A program made the translations under genes and the position numbers. A stretch of DNA of 64,000 nt from Coptis chinensis (lineage: Eukaryota > Streptophyta > Magnoliopsida > Ranunculales > Ranunculaceae): the NCBI GenBank assembly GCA_015680905.1, contig CM027379.1:91597501-91661500 (forward strand), given 5' to 3'. The notes beneath the pieces are model-generated. The model was not told the origin of the DNA. It did not search any database and saw only the letters and a list, made by a program, of their open reading frames with translations. The number at the start of each line of letters is the position of its first letter. Position 1 is the stretch's first letter. Below are positions 2,971 through 48,647 of this stretch, piece after piece.

Positions 2971-3779
2971 CACACAAATTATGCCACCTAATTGCAAGCA
3001 TCTAAATCAATTTTTATGATCAAGTGGAGTTGAACCTAGAACTAGGGCTAGAAAGATGTAATAGATAGAAAGAGCAAACTAGCTTGATCTATCATAGATC
3101 GGTTACATTATGAATGGGAGCTCGCAACAGCCATATGCGCAAGTTCAATTCGACTATGAGTTGAGCTCAATGCTCAATTAATCTCCAAATTAATAGTTAT
3201 TTGTTCTAATTTCTTTTAGATATTAGTTCGATCTAGTGCAAGTCAATCAAGCTCTAAACTGTGGGCTAGCAACAACTATCTCCGAAGGGGGGCTAATCAT
3301 TGCAATCTAAACAGGTCAATCAAGCTCCAAAACTGGGGCTAGCTATAATCATGCCAATTCAAGGCTAGTTATCAACTGCATCTCCAAACCAAAACGCTCA
3401 CTTGAGCTCAAAGGCTATATAGCCCACCACTTCTCGCTAATTGAGGACCTACACTTCTAGGATCAATTCAATGCAGAACGCTCTCTAAGAGAAAAACGCT
3501 CACCCAAGTTCAAATGCCACATAGCCCACCACTTCTCACTAGTTGAAGACCTATGCTTATAAGATCAACTCAGTGTAGAAAGCTCACTAAAGCATCCGGG
3601 TCACTCGAGCTACAACTTTCTTACTAATTGAGAACCTACACTTCTAGGATCAATTCAGTACTTGTCAAACCAGCATCACTTGCATCTTCAGTTACTACTC
3701 CACATGTTTCCCACGTGTGGAATTACTCTCTCATCAGCTCGCCCCCACAGAATTGGAACGACCTAATGAGAGGGGGTTG
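2971..3779 (+). other. LTR/UTR-derived tract of Tat copy B, inverted relative to 7378-7905
   Basis: No coding capacity. Much of it (about 2975-3640) matches the reverse complement of 7378-7905, for example the CACCTAATTGCAAGCATC and TAATTGAGGACCTACACTTC stretches. Internal near-duplications exist at 3400-3640. It ends in a purine-rich GAGAGGGGG just before the LTR-like start at 3780, which looks like a polypurine tract. Confidence 0.6.
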
Positions 3780-4277
3780 TGTCAGGGACTAATATACACA
3801 GCCAATGTATATTATACACGTGTCCAACACAACTCATCGCATAACTATATCAAGACCTGCCAGGTCACTTATACCAAGACTTGCCAGGTTACTCACGTCA
3901 AGACCTTAGTCAGGTCGCTCATATCTGGTCGCTCAGCCAGGTCTTGTAATGCTCAAAGATGGAAAGACATCCGTTACAGTAATTCTATAACAATAACCAT
4001 GCATTCATTCATCCTCCATTTAAGCTCATTCAAGAACCACATTGACCAAGGGTCACAGGGAACTAACAAAGTAAGGGGAGAGCTCTACGCTCACATTCTC
4101 TCCATCTCCAACTCAATCACACAACATGATCTAAACTACGTCTGACTTGATTCCAGTTCACCGGAGAACTAGATACGTAGACAATTCGATCATTCGAACT
4201 CAGTTATATCATCACCAATCTCATCTAGCCCCTATTCTCATAGGTTGATCAGGTCATACACAAAATGCACCTTTACA
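3780..4277 (+). repeat. LTR of Tat copy B
   Basis: Starts TGTCAGGGACTAATATAC after a polypurine-like GAGAGGGGG and ends CACCTTTACA, immediately followed by a primer-binding site. It carries three or four of the GACCTGCCAGGTC units near its start and the conserved (A/C)TAGATACGTAG block near its end. No second B LTR with a matching duplication was found, so B is incomplete. Confidence 0.7.
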
Positions 4278-4278
4278 T

Positions 4279-4294
4279 TGGCGCCATTTGTGGC
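4279..4294 (+). other. Primer-binding site of copy B
   Basis: TGGCGCCATTTGTGGC directly follows the B LTR end. It differs from that of element A by a few bases. Confidence 0.75.
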
Positions 4295-4360
4295 TTGATT
4301 TCTTGAGTTCACATCCAGTCAACCAGAAAAACCTTTAAACAAATCTCAAGCCCACGAAGC

Positions 4361-5674
4361 ATGGAAAGCCTACAAGAACAAATGAAGAGTATGGCCGCCC
4401 AGATGGGAACCAAGAATGATAACATCACCCTCTTATGACAGGAAAATGCCGAACTAAAAAATTAGGTGGCAGCCCAGAATCCCAACGGAGTCACAGGTAA
4501 GGACGGTATTAACGAAGTGAACTAGCAAATCAATGAGCTACCCCAGCGAATTGACCAGAGTACTGTGAAGAAGGACGCCACTCTGATCATCTAGAAGATG
4601 CTAAAAACTTATCGAGCATTCCCATTCACACCGGAGATACTCAATAAACCCTCCCCATATGATTTCATTCAGCCGCGCTTTGCGACGTATGATGACAATA
4701 CGTGTCCTAGTCAACACGTAGCTCGCTATATCTAGAGCCTCACACTCTATAGTGCACAAGAGTTTGACTACTTGCAATGCCACTTGTTTCCTGCAAGTCT
4801 AAAAGAAGAAGCCCTCGACTGGTTCTACTCACTGGAACCAAACTCCATCGATAGCTTTGAGAAGTTAACCAACCAGTTCACTAATCATTAAATCCATAAC
4901 AACGTAAGAAAACTGACGTCGACTCACTCTTTAAGCTGTCTTAGAAGAAAGATGAGTCAATCCGCTCTTTCTTAGGGAGATTCAAGACAGACTTGATGTC
5001 TATAAAAAGCGACCTTTAAGAGTTCTTTGCAACCTTGGCATTTACCAAGGCAATCCGGAAAAACACCTGGCTATACAAGCCGCTCATGAAGGAGCATCCT
5101 GAAAAACTGGAAGACTTGTACACTCGTGTGTACAAATACATAAAGATACAGGAAGCTTTAGATCATGACGGTGAACAAGAGGAAGTCGCAACAATCTTAA
5201 ACGCTGCCCCGTCCCAAAAAAAGAGACCCAGACCACAAGGACATAAGTGTGGTACCAAGACGCATACGAAGCGCGAGTTTGCTGTGCTCACAAGATCTCC
5301 AACTACATATTGGAGAAAGTAAAAATAGCGGGCTATTACCGACCTGAGATAAAATGGCCAGAAGACACACTAGGAAAGCCATACTGCATTTTCCACAAAG
5401 CGAAGTGCCATGAGACCAACGAATGCCACGGACTCAAGCAATACCTCCAAGACCTCATTGAGGCAGGCCATATCAAGCACTATACTACTATAGCCGATGG
5501 CGACTTGCACCACAAGCTCATGGCTCGTAGAAAGCAAAGCCGAACTGCTCTACGCAACCATAACCAAGATCGCTCCCACGCTCGAGGACGCTCTATGGAC
5601 CGATCTCGTCATGATTGTCGCCAACATTCATCTGACAGAGATAACAATAGAATGATCAATATGATCACCTTCTA
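4361..5674 (+). pseudogene. gag of Tat copy B, decayed
   Basis: The frame opens at ATG 4361 (MESLQEQMKSMAAQMG) and soon meets TGA and TAG codons that read Arg and Gln in the related copy C. A capsid-type stretch, ALDWFYSLEPNSIDSFEKL, is readable near 4808-4865. Two longer open pieces remain at 5035-5322 and 5247-5675 in different frames, so at least one frameshift separates them. The C-terminal piece is rich in Arg, His and Asp and has Cys/His spacing (YCIFHKAKCHETNECHGLK) typical of the Tat gag zinc-knuckle region. Same order and content as gag of copy C. Not functional. Confidence 0.8.
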
Positions 5675-5689
5675 GGACAACTCTGTCAC

Positions 5690-6205
5690 ATCCACAAGGG
5701 AGAAAAGGAGATGGGTAGGCACCCTCCAAGAAGTCTACCAGTTCTCCTCACAAGCAGCTCCTACCCCACACGCAACTACCCGCAACTCAGGGGACATCAT
5801 CTTTACTGAGACCGATCTGAACAAGGTGTGTCTCCCACACAATGATGCCTTGGTGGTCCACATCAAAATCAACGACTGGACTGTCAAGCGGGTCATGATT
5901 GACCAAGGCAGTTCATGCGACATCCTATTCTACCGCACCCTTAAGGAGATGAAAATGCCCAGGTCCGTCATGATTGATCTAATAGCCCCCTCTATGGCTT
6001 CAACGGATCACAAGCCGACCTAATAGGAGACATCATTTTACCTATCTCAGTTGGATCGCACGAAGAAAAAGTCAGCATTAATACGCGCTTCAGCGTTCTG
6101 GATGTCAACTTATCTTATACTGCTATTTTGGGACACTGTTGGATCCACAAGATGCAAGAAGTGCTATCAACACTCCATCAGGTTTTACGCTTCCCTAGCC
6201 CCAGA
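5690..6205 (+). pseudogene. Aspartic protease of Tat copy B, decayed
   Basis: The retroviral-type protease core is readable at 5826-6023 (VKRVMIDQGSSCDILFYRTL). The usual Asp-Ser/Thr-Gly triad is Asp-Gln-Gly here, whereas copy C keeps Asp-Ser-Gly, so the active-site loop is mutated. A frameshift follows near 6023, and the flap/ILG-like part continues to about 6200. The protease would process Gag-Pol. This copy is dead. Confidence 0.75.
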
Positions 6206-7366
6206 GGCATGATGGAGCTCAGAAGCAACCATCTCGATGCCTACAATTGCAATCAGATCCTCTCAGTCAACAACCATGCTGAGGCTTCACTCAAAAATAA
6301 GGGAGAGATCGGCAAAACCAAGCTTGCAGAAGACTTCATCACTGAGGTTAACACCCTGGCCAAGACCCCTTGAAGCGATCTGCCAAAGGAAAACACTAGG
6401 GGATCGATAAAAAATGCCCCTCCAGAAGCTCAGACCCCAAAGGTTGCCCACCCGTTTCGGTCAAGGAGACATCGCCAGAGACCAAGACTTGAGAGGTCGC
6501 TTAGCTCACTGAGCCGGCTGCTCAGACCGAGATTAAGGAAAATGTCAACCTAGGAACTGAGGATGACCCCAAGTTCGTTTATGTAGGAGCTAATCTTGAT
6601 CCTACTCTCAAGGCATAACTTGTAAGTTTTTTATCATTAAATAAAGATGTTTTTGCTTGGTCGTACATCGATGTGCCTGGAATTGATCCTAATATTGCAT
6701 GTCATAAGTTAAATGTTAACCCTAATGCTAAACCAGTTTGCCAACGACCTCGAAAGTTATCCCTTAAATTTCAAAAAGCAATCAATGAATAGGTCAAAAA
6801 TCTCAAAAAAGTTGGCTTCATTAGGATGGTCGATTACACTGAATGGGTCGTTAACACAGTAGCAGTCCCAAAAAAGAATGGCACTGTTTGCTTTTGAGTG
6901 GACTTTACAAACCTAAATCTAGAAACTCCTAAGAATAGCTTCCCCTTACCAAGAATCTACTGACTTGTGGACCAGACCTGTGGCCACGAGCTCTTGTCAT
7001 TCATGGATGCATACAACGGCTATAACCAAATCCCACTAGTAGAAAAAGACCAAGAGAAAACCTCATTCATGAGAAAGCAAGGAATTTACTGTTACAACGT
7101 TCTCCCGTTCGGCCTCAAGAATGCTTGAGAGACCTATCATCGACTTGTCACCGATATGTTCCAAGACATGTTAGGTGACACCATGGAAGTCTACATAGAC
7201 GATATGGTCGTCAAAAGCAAGAAAGCTGGAGACCACTTAGATCATCTCACACAAGCGTCCTCCAAACTTCGGTGAACTCAGATAAAGTTTAACCCTGAGA
7301 AATGCCTCTTTGGAGCGTCCTCTTGGAAATTTTTGGGTTATAAAGTCTCACAACGTATGAGAATAG
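6206..7366 (+). pseudogene. Reverse transcriptase of Tat copy B, truncated and decayed
   Basis: Linker and RT up to the palm/thumb. Readable parts include FMDAYNGYNQI (catalytic motif A, about 7003) and MEVYIDDMVVKSKKAGDHL (motif C, about 7184). Several TAG/TGA stops interrupt it (for example near 6367, 6790 and 6896). Homology ends at about 7350, so RNase H and integrase are absent from B. The sequence then runs into a 10-base LTR-end-like string and the inverted copy C. B keeps the motif-A segment that C has lost. Confidence 0.8.
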
Positions 7367-9313: not shown

Positions 9314-9814
9314 TCATCTGAGTGTCAGAGAGTGGGCATAGGTCGCCGATTCTAGGACATGCTCATTTTGGTAAGCGGGTCGATCAACTACTTTGATGAA
9401 TAGTTTTCTAGGGTCACAGTTCGGTGTTTGGGTCACGAGATATGCCAAGCTGTCAGCGTGGCAATTCTCTTCCCATAGGAAATGGTGTATGGTGACTTTC
9501 TTGAAAGAAGGCAGTAATTGATTTACAACTTGAAGGTACTTAGAAATGTTACCTTCATTAGTGGTATACTCACTGGCAACCTGGCGAATGACTAGTTGTG
9601 AATCGCTAAAGACCTTGAGCTCATGAACTTTGAGCTCTAACACCATATGGAGTCCCATGATCAAGGCTTCGTACTCAGCTTCATTGTTGGAGGTCGCAAA
9701 ATCGATGCAAACTGATTTTTCCACCATAGAGCCATCTAGTGCCACTAGGACTACTCCGACCCCGCTGGCACCTGGATTGCTAGCTCCGTCCATGAAGAGT
9801 GACCATACCGACAA
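9314..9814 (-). CDS. Second (archaeal-like) RNase H of Tat copy C
   Basis: An open 166-residue frame with the RNase HI acidic residues: Asp in SLFMDGASNPG, Glu in SNNEAEYEAL, Asp in FSDSQLVIRQ, and Asp in ENCHADSLAY. It lies between the RT-linked RNase H (10303-9854) and integrase. An extra RNase H in this position is the established hallmark of the Tat lineage. The domain looks complete, but it is part of a decayed polyprotein and is unlikely to be made as a working protein. Confidence 0.85.
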   Translation of the reverse strand: MSVWSLFMDGASNPGASGVGVVLVALDGSMVEKSVCIDFATSNNEAEYEALIMGLHMVLELKVHELKVFSDSQLVIRQVASEYTTNEGNISKYLQVVNQLLPSFKKVTIHHFLWEENCHADSLAYLVTQTPNCDPRKLFIKVVDRPAYQNEHVLESATYAHSLTLR

Positions 9815-9853
9815 GTCGTGTTATTTAGAGGTCGAGGTGTTGTCCTATGGTTC

Positions 9854-18539: not shown

Positions 18540-19241
18540 TCAAGTGCAAACTCTAAGTTCCTTTGAAAGGGTGGAAAGAGGGGGAATCGAGGCAGTTAGT
18601 GCACAAGGTAGTTCTTGATAGGGTGAATCATCACCTGTTCTAAGAAACTCGTCGAGTTCTTCATCCAGCTTGGTCACATACACATTACTATGGTATTCCT
18701 CTGTATCCCTGAGAAACTCATCAATCTCTTCCTCATCTATAAGATGGGTATCGACTGGTGTAGGGACAAAAATGTCGAAGTCTGAACATCCAAAGGAAAG
18801 AAATTTGGGCATCGGATTATCAGGAAACGTGTTATCGAAATAATCTCGAGCGATGCTAACCTCTCCATCGACAGTCGTATTTGGGTACGGTTGAATCGTC
18901 TTAAAAATATTTACCTCAACAGAAAGATGGCCAAAGGATAAGGACATCGAACCATCGCGGCAGTTTATGAGCGCGTTGGCAGTTGCCAAGAAAGGACGCC
19001 CTAAAATGATCGGAATAGAGTCATTAGCGACTTCTATATCAAGGATAACAAAATCAGTAGGATAGTAGAAATCCTGGACCTTAACAAGCACGTTTTCAAC
19101 CACACCCTTAGGGTACTTAATGGATCGATCCGCTAATTGCAATGTCATTTTAGTAGGTTGCATCTCTTGTAGACCTATTTGTTTGTATAGGTAATACGGG
19201 AGTAAGTTAACACTCGCCCCCAGGTCTAGTAAAGCGGTCAT
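18540..19241 (-). CDS. Athila-1 aspartic protease region (uninterrupted 233 codons)
   Basis: The active-site loop is TALLDLGASVNLLPYYLYKQ (Asp-Leu-Gly-Ala). It is followed by LQLADRSIKYPKGVVENVLV and by the hydrophobic ILGRPFLATANALINC segment typical of Athila/Tat proteases. The last 100 residues are acidic (for example DEEEIDEFLRDTEEY). The frame is open throughout, unlike gag before it, although no upstream Met start for a separate protein is evident. It would normally be translated as part of Gag-Pol. The matching protease in Athila-2 (26441-27115) is badly broken. Confidence 0.75.
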   Translation of the reverse strand: MTALLDLGASVNLLPYYLYKQIGLQEMQPTKMTLQLADRSIKYPKGVVENVLVKVQDFYYPTDFVILDIEVANDSIPIILGRPFLATANALINCRDGSMSLSFGHLSVEVNIFKTIQPYPNTTVDGEVSIARDYFDNTFPDNPMPKFLSFGCSDFDIFVPTPVDTHLIDEEEIDEFLRDTEEYHSNVYVTKLDEELDEFLRTGDDSPYQELPCALTASIPPLSTLSKELRVCT

Positions 19242-19313
19242 CGTGTGGGAATCCCTTAAAGTGCATTGTATCGTAGGACGACCAGGGTCCTTGTACTTTA
19301 CGATTCCATTATG

Positions 19314-24491: not shown

Positions 24492-26440
24492 ATGAGACTA
24501 CGGTCTGGTAAACATAAGGAATTAGAACTTACATATCGTCGTAAAAAATACAAGAAACAACTGTTTATTTTATCTCCTAGACATAGTTCCTCCTCCGTAA
24601 ATCAACCTCGTCAAACATCTCCGTTGCCATTATCTCCTTTAATTATGGCTGAGGAAAATCTCACAGTCGAGAAACCCCTTCCGGATTTCTATACTGCCTT
24701 ACAGGAAGGACCTGCTTCCTACATTAAACTGGATGCGATTGTAGGTGATTCTCGCATTCCGCCAAACATTTTCGGTTTGTTACCTGTTTACCATGGTTTA
24801 GACCATGAAAAACCGTACAATCATCTTCGTTGGATGCAACAAGTAGTCACCACTTTCCGCCATCCGACGGTTACCAACGAACAAGTCTTGCTTAGGTTGT
24901 TTCCCTTCACCTTAGCTGATAAAGCTTCAGTTTAGCTCACCGGACAAGTGCCGCAATCCATTGACACATGGGCCAAACTCGTACAAGCATTCATGATAAA
25001 GTTCTATACTCAGAAGAAAACTACAGAAATGCTTCAAAAGATTCAATTCTTTCGCCAGCACCCCCAGGAATCCTTTTCGGAAGCATGGAGCAGATTTACT
25101 GATCTGCTTCTCGAATCTCCCCATCATCAACTCGACACCGCTGTATTAGTCCGTTCATTCTTTAATGGTCTCTCTGACCATCAAAAGGAAACATTAGATA
25201 TCATGAACAGCGGTTGTTTTATGGACAAGGGCGCTACTGAAGCATACACTTTTCTTAAGAAACAGGCCTCACGAAGCACCCATTGGGGAAACACTGATTC
25301 TTCTAGATCTTCTAAAGACACTCATGCCAAAGTTACGTCTATGTTCGAGGTCAAACCTGATCCGGAATTAAAAACTCTAATCGAGTCCCTAAACAAAAAG
25401 GTCGATGCTCTTTTGGTACAAGTAAATGAACAAAAACCCAAACAGGTCATGGCTGCCAACGCTTCCCCATTCCCTCTTTGCTTAAGTCCTGAGCACGCCG
25501 ATTCTTATTGTCCTTTGGTATACGAGTGCCCTCCCCAATCTTCTGAAGAGGCTTGTGCTTTCAACATCCCTAATGCACCTTGGCGACAACATCCGAATTT
25601 ACCTTGGGCACCCCCTGTCCAACAACAAGCTCCTCCAGGTGTCAGCAACGTTCCTGTACGACCACCCGCGAACTACAATTCCTATCGTCAAGGCAATCCT
25701 CCGCAATTCCAGCAAGGGCAAAGTAATTTTCCCAACAACGCAAATATAGGCTACCAAGACAACCGCAACCTTGTTCCCGCTAATCAAGGATATGGCAACC
25801 AAAATCAACCCGTGAATAATAACCGTGAACTGGTTCCTACTGCTCCTCTGGTACAATCCACAGCCGATAAAACGGCTGAAACTTTCCCCATCACGGAATC
25901 AAACAAAATCAAATCCTAGCTTCTATCCAATAGTCTCTTCAGCTGTTAGCTCAGGATAAAAGTCAAAAGGGCGTGTTCCCTGGCCAAGCAGTTCCAAACC
26001 TTAAGCCTACAAACATTGCCTTTGAACTCAACAATGCACCAAGATCTAGTAATCCAAGCCAGGGTAAGGTAAATGTCATTACCACTCTCGGTTCTGGCCG
26101 AACCATTGACAATAATATACGTATGCTAGACGAGGAATCGACGAAAGCCACGACTGACGTCCTTCCAACTCCTACCTCGCAACCTATAACGGACAAAGTT
26201 GTACCTTCCAAATCTACACCCACGTCCCTAGGAAAAGATACCACTGATCCTTATATGCGATTCCGCCCAAAAGCTCCGTTCCCTGCCCGTTTGGTAAAGA
26301 ACAAACATGACGAACATTTTGATGAGATCTGTGAAACCTTCAAAAATTTGACCATAAACTTACCTTTCCTAGATGCGCTAAAGCATTTGCCCAAGCATGC
26401 CAAGTTTTTGAAGGACATGTGCACCACCAAACGGCGTTAG
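24492..26440 (+). pseudogene. gag of Athila-2, two disabling breaks
   Basis: Starts at ATG 24492 (MRLRSGKHKELELTYRRKK). The first break is a TAG at 24933-24935 in place of the Trp codon seen in Athila-1 (APWLSAQ vs ASV*LTGQ). The same frame continues open to 25919. It includes FRQHPQESFSEAWSRFTDLL, a Cys/His stretch (ASPFPLCLSPEHADSYCPLV) and a Gln/Asn/Pro-rich tail. A frameshift near 25900 and a nearby TAG precede the last piece (25973-26440), which ends FKNLTINLPFLDALKHLP ... CTTKRR. Core similarity to Athila-1 gag is clear along the whole length. Confidence 0.85.
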
Positions 26441-27115
26441 AATGTATCTCAACAAAGCGTTCCTCACTGAGTAGTTTCCCTCGATTACCACTACCAATGG
26501 TGTGGTAAAGTACAAGGACCTAGGGTCTAGGTAACCAGTATTACCATGCACGTTGGCGACAAGTATACCGCCATCTTGCACTTTTAGACCTAGGTGCCGT
26601 GTTAACCTACTTCCCTACTACTTATTTAAGCGGTTAGGTTTTCATGAATTAAAACCTACCAATATGACTCTGCAACTAGCGCGATCGGCTCCATCAAGTA
26701 CCCAAAGGAATAGTAGAATATAGTAAAGGTCCAAGATTTTTACTACCCGGTTGATTTTGTCATTCTAGATCTTGAAGTAGCCTTGTGACTCCATCCCTAT
26801 CATCTTGGGGCGTCCTTTTCTTACAACTGCCAACGCTCTCATAAATTGTCGGGGACGGTTCAATGACATTGTCTTTCGAACCTTTACATCCGAACTCAAC
26901 GTGTTCAAATTAATGAAATAGTTTTCCGATCCTATAATGGAGGGCGAGATTAGCTTGGTTGATAGTCTGGAACATGATTATTTCACAAACTCTTTTCCCC
27001 CAGACGAGATACACCAATTTCTTTCTTTTGATAATCCGGAGTTTGACGATGACTCGTACATAAAGGATGTCCATGCATTATTAGAGTCGATTACCACTAT
27101 TTGACCTTAATCTTT
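26441..27115 (+). pseudogene. Protease of Athila-2, heavily decayed
   Basis: Homologous to the intact Athila-1 protease but broken by many stops and frame changes. The active-site region is recognisable as LDLGA near 26588, and VPKGIVE and SIPIILGRPF-like pieces follow near 26700 and 26800. Not functional. Confidence 0.7.
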
Positions 27116-27225
27116 GTGTTGCAAACTGATTCGAAGAACTGGATTAAGCTCTTTTCCATTGAAGAGATGATCCGTCCACGAATCCTTGATCCCCAATCCT
27201 CCAACTCGGTTTTAAAACCTCTACC

Positions 27226-28245
27226 CTCGATTTGAAATCGTGCATCATCTCGATCCGATGGTAGTCACCCTATAATAATTTCTACTCACTTGACTACCGA
27301 CGAAGAGGCACGTTTGATTCATGTCATTCGTGAACACCGCTCCGCTATCGGATGGTCCTTAGATGATATCAAGGGAATAGACTAGCATATGCACGCATCG
27401 CATACATCTTGATGACAGCACAAAGACATCTCGAGAACCACAACGCCGCCTTAATCCCACCATGAAGAAAGTAGTAAGAGAGAAAGTTTTACGTTTACTT
27501 GATGCGGGTATCATATACCCTATCTCTGATAGTGACTGGGTTAGTCCTATCCACGTTGTTCCCAAAAAGTCCGGCATTCAAGTTGTATAAAATGAAAATG
27601 GTGAGTGCATCTCCACTCGCATTCCTTTGAAATGGAGAATTTGCATTGACTATCACAAACTTAATGCCAGAACCCATAAAGATCACTTCCCTCTCCCATT
27701 CATTGACCAGATGCTAGAACGTTTAGCCGGTCATGCTTACTACTATTTTCTTGATGGCTATTCTGGATACTTCCAAATTGTCAACAATCCAGCCGATCAA
27801 GAAAAGACAACTTTCACATGTCCCTTTGGAACCTTTGCATACAAACGAATGCGTTTTGGTCTTTGTAATGCCCTAGGCACTTTCCAACGCTGCATGCTTC
27901 ACATTTTTAGTGATATGGTGGAACGTTATATGGAAGTCTTCATGGACGACTTTTCCATTTACAGAAATTCCTTTGACGACTGCTTATCCAACCTTTCTAA
28001 AGTATTAACACGTTGCGAAGAGAAAAATTTGGTACTCAATTGGGAGAAGTGTCATTTCATGGTTACCAAGGGACTTGTTCTAGGTCATATTGTTTCGAAA
28101 GACGGGATAGAGGTCGATAAAGCTAAAATTGTTAAAATTGCTTTACTACCTTTCCCACGTACAGTTCGTGATATCCGTGCCTTTTTAGGCCACGCTGGGG
28201 TTTTCTGGGGAGATTCATTCAGATTTTTCTAAAGTTGCTCGACCC
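27226..28245 (+). pseudogene. Reverse transcriptase of Athila-2
   Basis: VREKVLRLLDAGIIYPISDS (near 27475) leads into an uninterrupted stretch at 27627-28232. That stretch has KWRICIDYHKLNARTHKDHF, motif A region FLDGYSGYFQIVNNP, FGLCNALGTFQRCM, and motif C MEVFMDDFSIYRNSFDDCL (FMDD, as usual in Athila). The thumb follows with VLGHIVSKDGIEVDKAKIV. A TAA near 27588 and a frameshift near 28200 disable it. The polymerase core itself is the best-preserved part of the element. Confidence 0.88.
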
Positions 28246-28745
28246 TTAACCAATCTCCTCGCTTAAGGATGCAGTATTCAACTTCAATTTCAATTGCAAA
28301 CAAGCTTTTGATACTCTAAAAACCGCTCTGACTACCGCTCCTATCATTCAACCCCCTGATTGGTCTCAACCATTCGAACTGATGTGTGATGCTAGCGACT
28401 TTGCTATTGGCCCCGTACTAGGCCAACAACGTGACGACAAACCCATTGTCATTTACTATGCTAGTAAAACTCTTAATGACGCTCAACGTAATTATACCAC
28501 AACTGAGAAAGAGTTCCTAGCTGTTGTCTATGCTTTGGATAAGTTTCGCCCCTACCTAGTTGGAACATCGACCATCGTATAAAATGACCATGCCGCAATT
28601 CGGTACTTACTCGCGAAAAAGGACGCAAAACAACGATTGTTCTGCTGGATCCTTCTCTTACAAGAATTCACCCTAGAAATCAAAGACAAGAAAGGAACCG
28701 AAAATGTCGTAGCCGACCGTTTATCAAGGCTGGTTGGTGACATCG
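28246..28745 (+). pseudogene. RNase H of Athila-2
   Basis: Reads LMCDASDFAIGPVLGQQRDD at 28381, then YYASKTLNDAQRNYTTTEKE, then YALDKFRPYL. A TAA at about 28580 stands in the VYTDH-type segment (reads TSTIV*NDHAA). The end, [15 protein letters not shown], lies near 28690-28735. One RNase H only, as expected for Athila and unlike Tat copy C. Confidence 0.85.
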
Positions 28746-30060
28746 ATAGTGATTCTGAAGCTATCGGTGATTCCTTCCCAGACGAATACTTGTACTCTAT
28801 TTTCTCATCTCCATGGTACGCAGATATCGTTAACTACCTAGTTACTGAGGAAGTCACCTCCTTTTGGTCACGTCCTGATCATAAAAAGTTCTTATCCACT
28901 GTGAAATATTATTTCTCGGATGAACCCTACCTCTTTAAGTATTGTTCCCACCAACTCATTCGTCACTGCATTCTCGATTGGGAACACACCGATGTATTAT
29001 CCTTTTGCCATGAACAATCTTGCGGAGGATATTTTAGTGGAAAGAAAACTGCGGCCAAGGTGTTACAATGTGGTTTTTACTGGCCTACCATTTTTCGCGA
29101 TGCACACGAACATTGCATAGCTTGCATTCGTTGTCAGCACCTAGGTCGAATTACCAAACGAAATATGATACCCCTAAATCCTATCTTGATTGTGGAAATT
29201 TTTGATGTTTGGGGCATTGATTTTATGGGACCCTTCCCTATTTCTCAAGGTTTCCTATACATTTTAGTCGTTTGTAGACTATGTGTCCAAATGGATTGAG
29301 GCACTTTCGCATGTCGCTCAAATGACCATAAGACTGTCGTGAGATTTTGTAAAAGAAAACATTTTCTCTCATTTTGGTGTTCCCAAAGCTATCATCAGTG
29401 ATGGGGGTACACATTTTTGTAACAAAATTTTTGGGTTTTTAATGAAAAAATATGGAGTTACTCACAAGGTTGCTACTCCATACCACCCACAAACGAGTGG
29501 CTAAGTGGAAGTCTCCAACAGAGAGATAAAGTCTATTATGGAGAAAACTGTCAACCTATCAAGAAAGGACTGGTCTCTCCGCTTATCAGATGCCTTGTGG
29601 GCATACCGAACAACATTTAAGACACCTATAGGGATGTCTCCTTACCACATTATTTTTGGAAAACCTTGTCATCTACCAGTTGAACTTGAGCATCGTGCCC
29701 TTTGGGCCATCAAAAGCCTCAATTACAATATCATCGAGGCAGGCGAGAAGCGAAAACTATAATTAAATGAGCTGGAGGAGATTCGGAGTGATGCTTATGA
29801 TCTCTCGAAATCCTACAAAGCTAATATGAAAAGAGTGCACGACAAGCACATTTTACGTAAGGATTTCAAAATTGGCCAAAAAGTTTTCTTGTACAACTCA
29901 GTTACACATCTTTCCCGGTAAATTGAAAACCGATGGTGCGGTCCTTTCATTATGTCACCGTGAAACATTATGGGGCAATCTCTTTTCTTAATCCAAAAGA
30001 TAACAAATAAATTTCAAGTCAATGGACAACGCCTAAAATATTTACCACGAATTACGCTCA
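28746..30060 (+). pseudogene. Integrase of Athila-2
   Basis: The H2C2 finger is visible ([15 protein letters not shown] near 29005 and [18 protein letters not shown] near 29112). The core follows: [16 protein letters not shown] (first Asp), IISDGGTHFCN (second Asp, near 29392) and [15 protein letters not shown] (Glu, near 29508). Breaks are a frame change near 29275 and a TAA where Gly-Gln would be (TSG*VEVSN, near 29500). Sequence after 29762 resembles the integrase C-terminal domain, with stops. Confidence 0.85.
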
Positions 30061-42372: not shown

Positions 42373-42931
42373 TGAGAGGGAGTAATATTCACATCTAATG
42401 AATACCGCACACGTGTCCAGCATATACAAAAATACCAACCGACCTCATATCCTCGTCCTCAGAGCTCGCTTCCTAGTAACTCGACTCACGCAAGAAACCG
42501 ATCTCATGTACTCGTCCTGCGAGCTAGCTTCTAAGTGACTCGAGTCAAGCAAACGATCTATCCTAGAAGCGACCTCCATAGTGCTCAATCCTCTCATCCA
42601 CAACAGCTCGTAACGTATGTCTTTACTATAGCCATCAAGACCGATACTCCATGCACGCTTAACAATAAATGTCCTTAACTTGCCATCAAGGCTCGCAAGT
42701 GACCTAAAGACCTGGATCTGACTTGACAGAGGAGACCAAGAGGCACGAGCATCTTGCCTATATAAAGAGGAGGAGGAACTACGTCTGACCTGGTTCAAGT
42801 CTCCACCCCATCAAAGAGAACTTGATACGTAGGCAGTTCATCCAAACGAACTCGGTCAATCCAAACCCACAAACACCTTTCTCTCTAATTCTTGCCTACA
42901 TTTGTAAGGTTAACCAAATATAACCTTTACA
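42373..42931 (+). repeat. 3' LTR of element A
   Basis: A 559-bp partner of 1703-2260, starting TGAGAGGG and ending CCTTTACA. TATA box at 42759-42766. Followed by GTGTA. Confidence 0.93.
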
Positions 42932-43430: not shown

Positions 43431-44582
43431 TATGGAGGACTAATATACGTTTTATTAGTATTGCTCACATGTTCAGCCAAGCAGTTAGCTTACCACATCA
43501 TCACTATCATCTTTAGTTCAGTTCGATATAATCTCCATAAGCAGCTCAACACATTTTCCAGGTCGAACTGCAAGATCTCAGCCATGTCGAAGCCAAGACC
43601 TAATTCAATTCACTCGGTCAAATGGGGAGTCATGTAACATCCAAATATAGAAAGACACTACAAAAAAACAGTCAATAAACGACGCCCTTATTTGTTGTTT
43701 TAGGACAAAAACGTGTGCTTTAATCCGTTGTTAGGGCCGTCATAAAAATAGTTGTGGTTTTTGAAAAACGACGGCCCGGGGCACTTGTTTATCCAATAAT
43801 ACAACGACGGCTTTTAACACTTGTTTTTTAAACAATGGCTATTGACACTTGTTTTCTATAAGTTCATCCCATCTTAAAATGTACATTAACGACATCCTAT
43901 GGCCGTTGTTTATTAATAATCATATATGTTTTTTGGTGCTCATTTTAGTACCTCGTACCCACCTGATAGTCATTTTAACCATAATATGAACTGTGCGTTG
44001 TAAATGTATAAAATTAAAATGGAACACAAGTACTGAACAAAAGCACAAAGGATTCATTTAATACTTCGATTTCCACAAAAGTCAAACTCAAGTAAAACAT
44101 TTGTATATACAAGTGTCTTTCATACAACAAATAAATTTAAATTACATGAGTATAAACTTTTCACCATCGAATGATACCACCGAATGATACCACCCTCTTC
44201 AACGTCACCAAGGTCTTGAATCTCGTCCACCATGTTGTAGTATGCATTTTGCAATAACCCTCACAATCACCAAGCAGTCTTCCAAAACGCAAGAACTCTA
44301 CAACAAACATTTTGCAACTCACATGATATATATAGAGATGGACTCGAGGGAACCCAACAAGAGAACTCCCGTCTGATATATATAACAAACTATCTAACTC
44401 TAATTTCAGCAAAGTAACATTTAATATAAGCCTTCAAATACTCAAATAACAAGGAGAGAGATCACCACAACCATGGCTGCCACCGAGTACTATGATTTCA
44501 ATTAATAGTTTCACTTGGTGTTCTTGTTGGTCTGATCATGATGGTAAGCATATGATGATGCAGGTCTGAGGATATAGCTTCG

Positions 44583-44730
44583 ACTCGGGCAGATTTGGAG
44601 TGTCGAACACCTTGCAAATACGTTGTTCACCCTTGCCCTTTCTAAGCATTAACCTAACTGTGGCAGCATGAGCTAGCACCTACCCCCTTACTGGTTTCCT
44701 TGGATCAGCAATGAACACACCACCACCTGG
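44583..44730 (-). pseudogene. DMC1: Captured fragment of meiotic recombinase DMC1
   Basis: Directly continuous with the HD-ZIP IV START block in the same frame. It reads PGGGVFIADPRKPVRG, a TAG, then [20 protein letters not shown] and [13 protein letters not shown]. This is the near-C-terminal segment of DMC1 (family pattern GG-FI-DPKKPAGGHVLAHA, then [14 protein letters not shown]), and it is closer to DMC1 than to RAD51. About 49 codons are present. The in-frame stop sits where DMC1 has the GGH residues. DMC1 performs strand exchange between homologues in meiosis. This piece lacks all ATPase motifs and cannot act as such. Confidence 0.9.
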
Positions 44731-44734
44731 ATGA

Positions 44735-45896
44735 CATGATATGCTAGATGTTATAGTCTGAACAGTCTTTGCTAATGAGATAATGGAAGGGAAAATATCC
44801 ATCCATTTGTTCTGAAAATAAAAGTACATGTCTAATCATAGGCCATGCAAGACATAGGTAGACTGAATTTCAACTATTGGAGTCACTAACTAGGATCCTA
44901 CTTTGGATATAACATCATGTTGCTCTTCATATATAGTAGACATTTTCATCCAACAAAATCGAACAAGAAAGAATATGACATAAAACAAAAAGATTACAAA
45001 AAAAAGGTAAATTACTTTTAGTGTGAAATTTGTTCAACACTAAAGACTACGAACTTAACAATCTATCCAGAAAGTATCACGTATTATACAATTTTAAATG
45101 TAGATTTCTTTGAGATTGAGAACTTACAACATCTAAGAATGCATCAGCAAGAGTAACTAAACTAAACCTTTCCATACTAAAGCGTTTCACCTTCCAAATT
45201 CTTTCTGTAATTAACAATTTTGAGCCAAGAACAAAGCCAAAGTGTGGTGCAATAAGACTAAAATGTACTTACCATTCATTGTCACTTGAATCGCCTAGCT
45301 AGCAATATATTTATCAACAGAAATATTGAGCAAAGGAATAAATAATACCTCTTCTTTGAGTCAGACATTTTCAAACCAAAGATGTTGTTCATTGAATGAC
45401 ATTGGTCCTAGAATTGTCGAACCTCCACAGTTAGGACAGGATATGCTCCTCAACGCGGCTTGTAGCCTGAAATCCTCATTTTTTAGGTTCCCATTTTCGG
45501 CTTTGAGTATCACATTCTAGCTTCTATCTTGTTGTGCCTAAATAAACATCAAACATAACAAGATAAAGTGTTGTGAAATTTAAAATAGCAGCAAAGCTTA
45601 TATTGTGTTATCACATTAAGTAATCGTTAAACAGGAAGAGGCACAAGAATTGGTCATTAATGAGAATCAACCAAATAGTTGAGCCAAGGTAATGAGCTTA
45701 GCTTTTTCTCAATTCTTATCCATCCATAAGTTTATTTTTGGTACGCATGGATACTATTGTTGCTTGGAAAATGTGCATAATAAAGAAAGTAGAAATGAAA
45801 GCTAAGAACACCCACCTTCATCCGAGTTTGCCGATTTTGGAACCAGAACTTAACTTGACGAGTTTTAAGTCCAAGTTCTTGGCTAAGTTTCTTGGC
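44735..45896 (-). pseudogene. Captured fragment of an HD-ZIP class IV homeobox/START gene
   Basis: Four exon-like blocks with plant splice sites. (1) 45896-45816 encodes the third homeodomain helix (LSQELGLKTRQVKFWFQNRQ), with a donor after RMK. (2) 45537-45349 encodes the zipper-loop region, including ILKAENGNLKNEDFRLQAAL and the diagnostic CPNCGG. (3) 45204-45128 encodes the START-domain start FSLVTLADAFLDV. (4) 44811 to about 44735 encodes NKWMDIFPSIISLAKTVQTI. Order and phases fit an HD-ZIP IV gene (GL2/HDG type), a family of DNA-binding epidermal regulators. In-frame stops (TAG in DRS*NVIL, TGA in ENV*LKEE) and missing parts make it non-functional. The first homeodomain helices are absent. 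Confidence 0.9.
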
Positions 45897-46689
45897 CTAT
45901 GATAACAAAGAAAGTGTGCTTCATGTGTAGGTAAAAAAGGTGAGAAATACTGCAACTCTTCATACATCTGCCAAAAGATTGAATAGAAGAGTGTACAAAG
46001 TGCTTTCAGACTTTTATAAATGAATGTACAAACATTGAAAGAACAAAATCAGAGGTTTAAATGTCCACCATATTATTACCAAATGAAGGGAGCCATCTGA
46101 TCTTAGAGGTTCAAATCTAACAACAAGTGATCTGATCTCCATGGGAATCTACATAATTAACAAGAAAAAAAAATGATGCCCATCTCTCTCTTTGGCTGAC
46201 TTTTGTTAATTTTTCAATAAAAAAAATAGTATAAAACTAATGATTTACATTAATTAGGACCCATCAGCTGGTTATGTTTACCTGTCAAGGTCCTGAATCT
46301 ATACAAGTGTACATGAGCTGAAAATAATAGCAAACAAAGGATTAGAGATAAACACCATAAATGAAAAACTAATTATTAGTGAAATAGTGCTCCATTGTAT
46401 AGTACAAGCTAAGTGTGCAACTACAACTGTCTTTAGAATACTAAAGCTTAACATTATTCAAATTTGATGAAGCAAGGAGTAAGGAATCGATAAATACAAA
46501 TCATAAGGTGTTAGATGTGCAAAGATAAGAAAGTGCTTCTTAATTTCCTATAATGTCATGGCCAAAATCCTTCTGACTTCTACGCAGATGTACACGGCCC
46601 TTACTCACACCTTGTGTTCTTGTACAACAACAATGCCATGTCAAGCCAAAAAAACCAAAACTAGTATTAAACTGTTAGTTATGTGTTTC

Positions 46690-46932
46690 ACCAACCTGAA
46701 GGAGATAATAGAAAATGCAAAGCCCATATGGATCTTCGCTACTCTGCACATCAACAAGTGACCCAACCTTTGAAGTAGTAAATGAGATGTGCTCATTCCA
46801 TATCACAATGTCAAGCTCCTGCCTCCCAATATGAGAAGGAATTATTGGCCAGTTACTATCGCCTTCCTTCACTATTTGAATCACAATTCCACCATTTAAA
46901 ACCCATCCAAATCTTTCACACATATATTTCAA
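46690..46932 (-). pseudogene. Unrecognised exon-like block inside the CACTA
   Basis: An open - strand block: [20 protein letters not shown], then [20 protein letters not shown], then [20 protein letters not shown], ending YYLLQ at a plausible donor (CAG|GTTGG). The composition looks like real coding sequence rather than random AT-rich DNA. I cannot assign a family, and it does not match HD-ZIP IV or DMC1. It may be a third captured host fragment. Confidence 0.4.
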
Positions 46933-48647
46933 CTACTTAACTATATACCTATCCAAATCATTTCTCCACGTACAAACCCAATATGAGCTACAACCATAAG
47001 AGTGGTCTTGAAGACACCAGCTCATTTGTAAATTGTTTCAGCAGGTAGCTGTGCAGTCAAACTCCCTTTTTCTTCAAAGCAAAGTTACTGAGTCCTCATC
47101 AGATTATGTTCAAATGAATATATAGTTAGATAATAATAGTTATTCAATATGAGAAATTGCACTAATACTTATGCCGCTCAATACATGGAACCTTCACAAA
47201 TTCTACAAAAAACTCAAGTTCCAAGTAATATTCTCAAAAAAACATAAGGATATAAGCTACTAGCCTTAACGTAAAAATGAAAGAACTTCTCTAACTACTA
47301 ATGAATATACTAATTGAATAACTTTTAATCAAATATATAAAAGAAACAATAACTTTAATCACATACAGATTAGAACTTTCAAATTTCAACCAAAATCAGA
47401 AAAAGATATGATAGCTAATAGCTTAAATTGGAAACTGCTATATCCATACAAAAAACATGCACAATTACAAGAAAGCAAAACATTGAATACCTTCTATTAC
47501 ATAGATACGAATAGCAAGCAAAACTTTCAAATTTAAACTATCTAATTTTGAGCTTAAATTTGCAATATCAGATAAACAAAGTGTTGGCTACAGTTGAGAG
47601 AATACAAAGGGTTATAATTTTTCTATAAATTAACCAAACAAGTAAATTGAAATTTCGAAACTAAATTTACCAGAAAAAATTCAGGAAAAAACAAATCAAA
47701 CATTGAAGAAGATGGGAGATATTGGAACTTGTCTCTTGAATTCCAATCTTGAACCAAAATTCTGAGAACCAAAATATCACAAACATTGAATCCGACCTTT
47801 AAATCCTCAGCTACAATAATAAAAGCGAAGAAGAAACGAGATTGTCTTACTAATTTGTCATATCATAATTCATACCTCTATTAGTTGACAAAAAAACAGC
47901 GTGAAATTGAATTTAACTCAAAGTTCAGTAAAGTTGAACTTTGTAAACTCAAATTGATGAAACAAAAGGAAAATTTTACACAAAAACACGAATAATCGAT
48001 CAATAGCCTCGAACTCCCTGAATAGATAAATAAGATGAGGTGAGGAAATAGAGGGAGTACCTGAGAAACGCCGTAAATCTGGCCTGGGTGTGGAGTTGAG
48101 ATATAATGGTGGCCTTTGGTGTGGAGTTGAGGCGGAGAGAAACAGTGGTGGCGTTGAGAACTAAATTTTTCTGTTTGTTGTACTTTTTCATTGGGTATGA
48201 GGGTGGGAATGAGCCCGGGGAAAGCCCACTCGCAGCAAACAGAATACAACGGCCAATGAGTCCATCAATGACGGCCCAAAACACTCACGATATAACAAGG
48301 GCCGTTAACCGTGGTTTTTGCCCCGAGACTGATGTCGTTTTTTAGCCAAAATGGTGTAGTGAGGCTGCCGTTACAGCAATCCCTTAACTTCAACTCCACC
48401 TTTAAAGATTCCATATTCATTGCTTATTAATGACTGTTAATGAAGAACATGACCTAACTAGAAGGAAGAGGAAGGATCAGCAACTGATCTATAAAAACAG
48501 AATAGGAACTACTTCTGACTTTATTAAAGTTTATCAGAGAACTTGATACGTAGGCCATTCGTTTATACACGAACTCAGTCAACCACCTGAACTATTCTCT
48601 ATTCCCAACCAGCAAGGCTAACCACTGAATCAAGCATTAACAGGTGC

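Follow-up and report, generated by a model that had tools for sequence, protein, structure and literature searches.

CACTA transposons that carry pieces of several host genes are already known. Tgm-Express1 of soybean, a CACTA element of 5.7 kb, holds exon-intron pieces of five unrelated host genes (PMC1947982). The element considered here occupies positions 43656-48361 of a 64,000-nucleotide stretch of Coptis chinensis DNA (C3:91597501-91661500, hereafter the window) and is a non-autonomous CACTA transposon, a Pack-CACTA, with pieces of a DMC1, an HD-ZIP IV and a Mago nashi gene. It resembles Tgm-Express1 in carrying pieces of several host genes (three against five) but differs from it in family, host and genes. 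The soybean element is, according to the available part of the article, transcribed and spliced inside a host gene, and that part makes no mention of circular permutation. The permuted order of the HD-ZIP IV piece is the mechanistically interesting feature of the Coptis element.

Pack-TYPE transposons of Arabidopsis, rice, and maize are likewise non-autonomous, contain captured coding DNA, grow stepwise, and have ends that are common between groups (PMC8903248, available part). Compared with what is described there, the Coptis element is a three-gene composite whose end parts resemble two subfamilies and which harbors a permuted gene piece. In Chenopodium, CACTA elements carry small host gene fragments (AP2, Neprosin), including one of a flower-development gene. 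The accessible portion of that report places the fragments upstream of a TAD, taken to be a transposase-associated domain, whereas no transposase domain was found in the Coptis element (PMC8978399). Models of capture are the subject of a 2026 review (PMC13317346, seen in part). Among the literature matches listed, no title or opening of an abstract names the capture of DMC1 together with HD-ZIP IV or a permuted capture, "circular permutation" not having been a query.

It is very likely that the Coptis element was built stepwise from three gene pieces and then mobilized as a unit, the fragments being passengers without an intact protein.

The CACTA element and its copies

The whole element measures 4706 bp and lies between AGA and AGG. 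From its first base at 43656 it reads CACTACAAAAAAAC, and its last letters, up to 48361, are GGTGTAGTG; both terminal inverted repeats begin with CACTACA. Its features are given below, with the numbering of two loci in the same genome, the DMC1 gene L029 (C5:89.13 Mb) and the HD-ZIP IV gene L030 (C1:50.54 Mb).

43656-43662, plus strand: left terminal inverted repeat, CACTACA
43656-44469, no strand: left-end block, its first 0.62 kb at least common to all 19 other loci fetched (70-96%)
44470-44732, minus strand: DMC1 genomic fragment (part of an exon and following sequence), Pfam Rad51, 83% to L029, in-frame TAG at 44680-44682
44723-44985, minus strand: HD-ZIP IV, the main START block (START exon NKWMDIFP and the sequence before it), L030 6401-6673, 84% to the C1 gene, adjoining DMC1
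45018-45157, minus strand: HD-ZIP IV, START piece, L030 5208-5356
45155-45254, minus strand: HD-ZIP IV, L030 4604-4704, 94%
45285-45891, minus strand: HD-ZIP IV, part of the homeodomain exon, intron, and zipper exon with TAG and TGA, L030 3725-4327, 88%
45902-46095, minus strand: HD-ZIP IV, downstream START part, out of gene order, L030 6671-6883, 75%, E 3.8e-39
46262-46984, minus strand: Mago block, also at C9:32.34 Mb (L042), 82%
46670-46880, minus strand: Mago nashi exon fragment with a GT donor at 46694-46695, Pfam Mago_nashi E 5.3e-20, PDB Mago chains E 2.3e-20
47015-48361, no strand: right-end block, common to elements L026 and L027 (71-72%)
48355-48361, minus strand: right terminal inverted repeat, CACTACA (TGTAGTG on the plus strand)

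The subterminal repeats are distinct at the left end but weak at the right. Four copies of a repeat, D1, lie at 43767-43915, and a single copy, 68% alike, is found near the right end at 48294-48321; a lone 13-base inverted match links 43731 and 48268. The longest stop-to-stop open reading frame (ORF) encodes 127 aa, and Pfam finds no transposase domain in any of the 15 such ORFs of at least 60 aa within the element. On the basis of these ORF lengths and the Pfam scan, the element lacks a transposase of its own. Between its ends lies host gene DNA with candidate donors elsewhere in the genome (L029, L030, and L040).

The family was surveyed in the 935.6-Mb genome with a 385-base query from the left end. 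Of 134 candidates, 40 were scored, all of which match at 74-100%, in some cases along a portion of the query, and 20 of these were fetched, including the window copy. The right end was sought by motif and could be plausibly placed in 14 of the 20 loci. In L024, two candidates lie 42 bases apart, and the one taken is the sequence also present in L022 and L023. The sole motif in L012 and L016 was judged not to be the right end, and no motif fitted in L014, L018, L027, and L028, although BLAST locates a degenerate right end in L027. The 3-bp target site duplication (TSD) characteristic of CACTA elements is perfect in 12 of the 14 members in which both ends were found; besides the window copy, the failure is L021 (CAA/TAT). 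The TSD of L015 is weak evidence because it lies within a TA repeat. Furthermore, L018, L020, and L021 (C6:35.68-35.97 Mb) have one left flank in common, probably as a result of local duplication, and therefore do not represent independent insertions.

A second search took the permuted HD-ZIP block as its query; 33 candidates were scored, and five of the 57 matches span the full length of the block. These composite copies reside at C3:91.64 (the window), C5:64.10, C4:37.18, C3:65.77, and C8:75.55 Mb, and both element ends are present in four of them. Three (L010, L011, and L013) are full-length copies at 95-96% with perfect TSDs, so that the composite has been mobilized as a unit. In the fifth, L012, an element with CACTACT/AGTAGTG ends is nested, and the match of L012 reaches only as far as window position 46923. 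Pairwise Kimura distances within this set of five range from 0.012 to 0.062, L012 being the most distant, and transitions exceed transversions in nine of the ten pairs, the two being equal in the remaining one.

Three captured gene pieces

The initial annotation described CACTA-type ends enclosing fragments of at least two unlinked genes, a description borne out by donors on C1, C5, and C6, three other contigs of chromosome size, and by the TSDs and the further copies, and it proposed searching the genome for parent genes and further copies. Both exist: DMC1 at L029, HD-ZIP IV at L030, and four more copies of the element. The two genes it named, DMC1 and HD-ZIP IV, are indeed present, but it overlooked the third, the Mago nashi fragment. 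The exons assigned to HD-ZIP IV do come from one such gene, yet they do not follow gene order, the START piece at 45902-46095 standing upstream of the homeodomain.

The DMC1 fragment is recognized by Pfam as Rad51 (E 6.9e-20, in a translation that reads through one stop) and matches reverse-strand positions 2293-2572 of L029, a multi-exon locus as judged by its frames, in 233 of 280 columns. We take this Rad51-type fragment to be DMC1 in part from the source names among the protein matches (e.g., P0010, P0019, and P0021); in a PDB search, RAD51 ranks on top with DMC1 behind. The junction with HD-ZIP IV falls within a DMC1 exon at a microhomology of 4-10 bp. Six more short matches resembling DMC1, which have a 50-aa open frame in common, occur at C6:17.04, C3:57.73, C3:102.87, C4:9.10, C3:101.37, and C1:52.03 Mb and may belong to another element family carrying DMC1.

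The five HD-ZIP IV blocks match the single gene L030 at 75-94% DNA identity, and Pfam detects a Homeodomain in them (E 7.1e-9). The protein of this gene, spliced by eye from the genome locus, is 100% identical to IFM89_020114 (825 aa), harbors Pfam Homeodomain and START domains, and has relatives named ROC3 or HDG5. Since intron sequence is retained in the element, the capture involved DNA rather than cDNA. In the sense of the gene, the blocks run 6671-6883, 3725-4327, 4604-4704, 5208-5356, and 6401-6673, followed by DMC1, an order that is identical in all five copies. By domain, this corresponds to the downstream part of START, homeodomain, zipper, upstream part of START, and DMC1, with coding sequence lost between zipper and START.

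The HD-ZIP IV gene has been copied repeatedly. Beyond the five copies and the C1 gene, at least 18 loci contain its homeodomain-zipper region and at least two more its short end only. A long element termed TE2, presumably a second CACTA family, starts with CACTACACCAAAAC and carries the homeodomain-zipper part at L031, L032, and L035 (C7:24.25, C5:51.84, and C2:85.55 Mb) and in the related L033 and L034. The TE2 stretches compared comprise 7.5 kb of L031 and 4 kb each of L032-L035; L032 and L035 were also compared with each other over 7.4 kb, and no right end was identified. Direct descent of the window's piece from TE2 is unlikely, as the five TE2 stretches have no START match beyond gene position 4894 and form their own clade in a tree of 11 homeodomain-zipper sequences. 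In this tree, roughly similar distances separate the window family, TE2, and the C1 gene from one another, which would fit separate captures of the gene without proving them.

A third dispersed repeat family contains the START half in native order, at L045 1143-3183 and L046 1166-3191 (C8:41.47 and C1:67.35 Mb), which are 98% alike over 2.8 kb. The permuted-block search finds the two START pieces side by side, in native order, at five loci, of which L045 and L046 are the two that were read. This family is also an unlikely source, because the main START block is 78% identical to it versus 84% to the C1 gene. For the short downstream START block, L045, L046, and the C1 gene are all approximately 75-76% identical to the window.

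The best donor candidate for the Mago nashi fragment is the gene L040 (C6:76.0 Mb, 79%). The family at C9:32.34 Mb is a possible source of the Mago piece; no CACTA ends were found in the 8.5 kb read around that locus. Mago nashi exon fragments outside the window family are seen at six dispersed loci (C9:32.34, C8:19.40, C4:89.60, C8:20.77, C5:71.36, and C8:81.42 Mb), the one at C9 being the locus read. At L041 (C6:26.76 Mb), 585 bp match the element's right half at 95% identity and break off within the Mago exon, perhaps representing a truncated sixth copy.

Probable order of assembly and HD-ZIP IV permutation

The element is a mosaic, because its parts also exist apart: in a subfamily B, in L026 and L027, and at the C9 locus. 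Subfamily B consists of eight loci (L015-L021 and L025) that have the left end and DMC1 in common with the window at 78-81%. In L019 and L025, the DMC1 piece reaches farther upstream, into a further DMC1 exon, at the place taken by HD-ZIP IV in the window element. The DMC1 junction region reads GTGGTGTGTT in all eight loci and in the window family, versus GTGGCATGTT in the gene, and the piece ends at gene position 2578 in L019 and L025 (the two tested) versus 2572-2578 in the window family. Given this longer piece, the shared junction bases, and the nearly identical end, DMC1 was most likely captured first, in the older subfamily. L026 and L027, on the other hand, match the window element over the left 0.7 kb at 74% and over the right 1.3 kb at 71-72%, and its captured gene pieces have no match in them at E 1e-8.

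The following course is thus proposed. An older subfamily, which holds a genomic piece of DMC1, would have made the first capture. In one lineage, the upstream part of DMC1 has given way to a permuted HD-ZIP IV piece of the ROC3/HDG5 type, presumably by replacement at the 4-10 bp microhomology. Combined with the DMC1/HD-ZIP IV part is the right half, which holds the Mago nashi piece and whose terminal portion resembles that of another subfamily. The composite would then have been moved as one unit to at least five places by a CACTA transposase acting in trans and would have decayed thereafter as neutral sequence, as stops and frameshifts suggest. Assembly most likely proceeded via repair of double-strand breaks or gaps with template switching, or by fusion of neighboring elements.

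Several observations weigh against this stepwise reading. The window copy itself has an imperfect TSD, agreeing at 2 of 3 bases. The Mago donor is the least certain of the three, since L040 is only 79% identical and differs at positions where the captured piece agrees with known Mago chains. An autonomous partner was not identified, no genome search for a TNP2-type transposase (PF02992) having been made; among the fetched copies, the long ORFs of L028, L014, L016, and L018 were judged by eye to belong to other element types. Finally, L012, the most distant copy, is open across the START-DMC1 block, and the chimeric exon could thus once have been translatable.

The native order is seen in the C1 gene. 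As L045 and L046, members of one repeat family, also have START in that order, the donor order is not an assembly error. The last captured block is cut at 6667-6673 (an end blurred by the DMC1 microhomology) and the first at 6671, so that the two cuts lie at most approximately 7 bp apart in the START exon. By a rough estimate, the chance of two ends agreeing this closely in a 3.2-kb stretch is below about 1%. The circular permutation may point to an intermediate of capture that was circular or tandem-duplicated or arose by template switching. Tentatively, a circular or tandem-duplicated intermediate may have been involved, with the permutation as its record.

One account, which is a serious but still uncertain possibility, is gap repair that switched templates repeatedly within the HD-ZIP IV gene, jumped back once from 6883 to 3725, and then jumped into DMC1. 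Template switching has been proposed for Pack-TIRs of animals (PMC8277862, as far as the accessible text goes), and short microhomologies or fillers mark several borders of the Coptis element. The filler between 6883 and 3725 is part of 12 bases that match the HD-ZIP IV gene on its opposite strand (6551-6562). However, such a match is weak, as the whole element yields 13 opposite-strand 12-mer matches on 11 diagonals, and 50 mononucleotide shuffles gave 6.4 on average and up to 15. Moreover, the return to within approximately 7 bp of the start would have to be the coincidence estimated above.

Somewhat doubtful is a circle, in which the 3.2-kb stretch of L030 from 3725 to 6883 would have closed on itself and been integrated into the element through one crossover at the microhomology between the START exon (CATCCCAGTGG) and DMC1 (GATCCAGGTGG), with internal deletions following. 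The block order 6671-6883, 3725-5356, 6401-6673 in all five copies, the proximity of the cut ends in the gene, and the native START order of L045 and L046 speak for such a circle. In contrast, a single crossover should leave upstream DMC1 sequence beyond the insert, none of which was matched there; the three internal gaps need a separate explanation, and no circle was observed.

Fusion of two CACTA elements, after the model of Catoni, appears unlikely, although it accounts for the permutation and the coincident ends together. Here, insertion at L030 6671-6673 and a tandem duplication would be followed by mobilization of the interior by the outer ends and by deletion of the inner ends down to the gene border. 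The TGG overlap at 6671-6673 has the length of a CACTA TSD, and growth by fusion of neighboring elements is the published Pack-TYPE model, to judge from the available portion of PMC8903248. Nevertheless, neither junction retains a remnant of an inner terminal inverted repeat, and the exact overlap is uncertain, given that the HD-ZIP/DMC1 border lies in microhomology and the L011 match stops at 6667.

Coding state and implications

The initial annotation reported a single exon-like block passing in one frame from START to DMC1. The register is indeed kept, but an in-frame TAG interrupts DMC1 in four of the five copies, including the window copy, and the zipper exon contains at least one stop in all five, with a 5-base deletion in L010, L011, and L013. 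An open spliced reading frame, as expected of a functional chimeric gene, does not exist in the window copy. Stops and frameshifts rule out a working fusion protein in the present copies, and such a protein is unlikely in general as far as the sequence tells. The START-DMC1 "fusion" thus appears to be a fossil register, not a gene.

A protein search with the START-DMC1 block, in which the TAG was read as Q, returned 65 proteins, all with Rad51 as the sole listed domain. Six of these were aligned, including the four with the widest coverage (92-100% of the query); in place of START, they carry upstream residues of DMC1 itself or other residues. A functional chimeric gene, or a source of small interfering RNAs (siRNAs) regulating DMC1 and the HD-ZIP IV gene, is very improbable. 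In its favor, the START-DMC1 register is kept and is open in L012, and chimeric transcripts are documented for Tgm-Express1 in the available part of its report. The window copy also shares perfect 21-mers with its donor exons: 20 with DMC1 and 12, 13, 31, 0, and 0 with the five HD-ZIP IV exon stretches. Against it stand the stops and frameshifts, the absence of START from the aligned proteins, and the lack of any 21-mer for Mago. That the gene pieces are ancestral neighbors or an assembly artifact is next to impossible, as five copies occupy distinct sites, four of them with both ends, and the donors lie on C1, C5, and C6; nothing in its favor was found. Nor is there any sign of a new working gene.

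Around the element, the sequences at 42774-42839 and 48504-48560, 5.7 kb apart, are 81-92% alike and possibly mark an older retroelement that hosts the CACTA insertion. Elsewhere in the window, 9314-9820, 18540-19313, and 24936-29299 are retrotransposon remnants with Pfam matches to RNase H, protease, gag, reverse transcriptase, and an integrase zinc domain.

Ordered by divergence, the family forms a series from ends only, through ends with DMC1, to ends with DMC1, HD-ZIP IV, and Mago, and candidate donors are at hand. Two other dispersed repeat families also contain parts of the HD-ZIP IV gene, which can thus serve to test why certain genes are captured repeatedly. The mechanism by which Pack-TYPE transposons capture genes is still debated, and the permuted fragment could help to separate circle, tandem-duplication, and template-switch models. 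If a circular or tandem-duplicated intermediate was indeed involved, the permutation could be a readable trace of how Pack-TYPE transposons capture genes.

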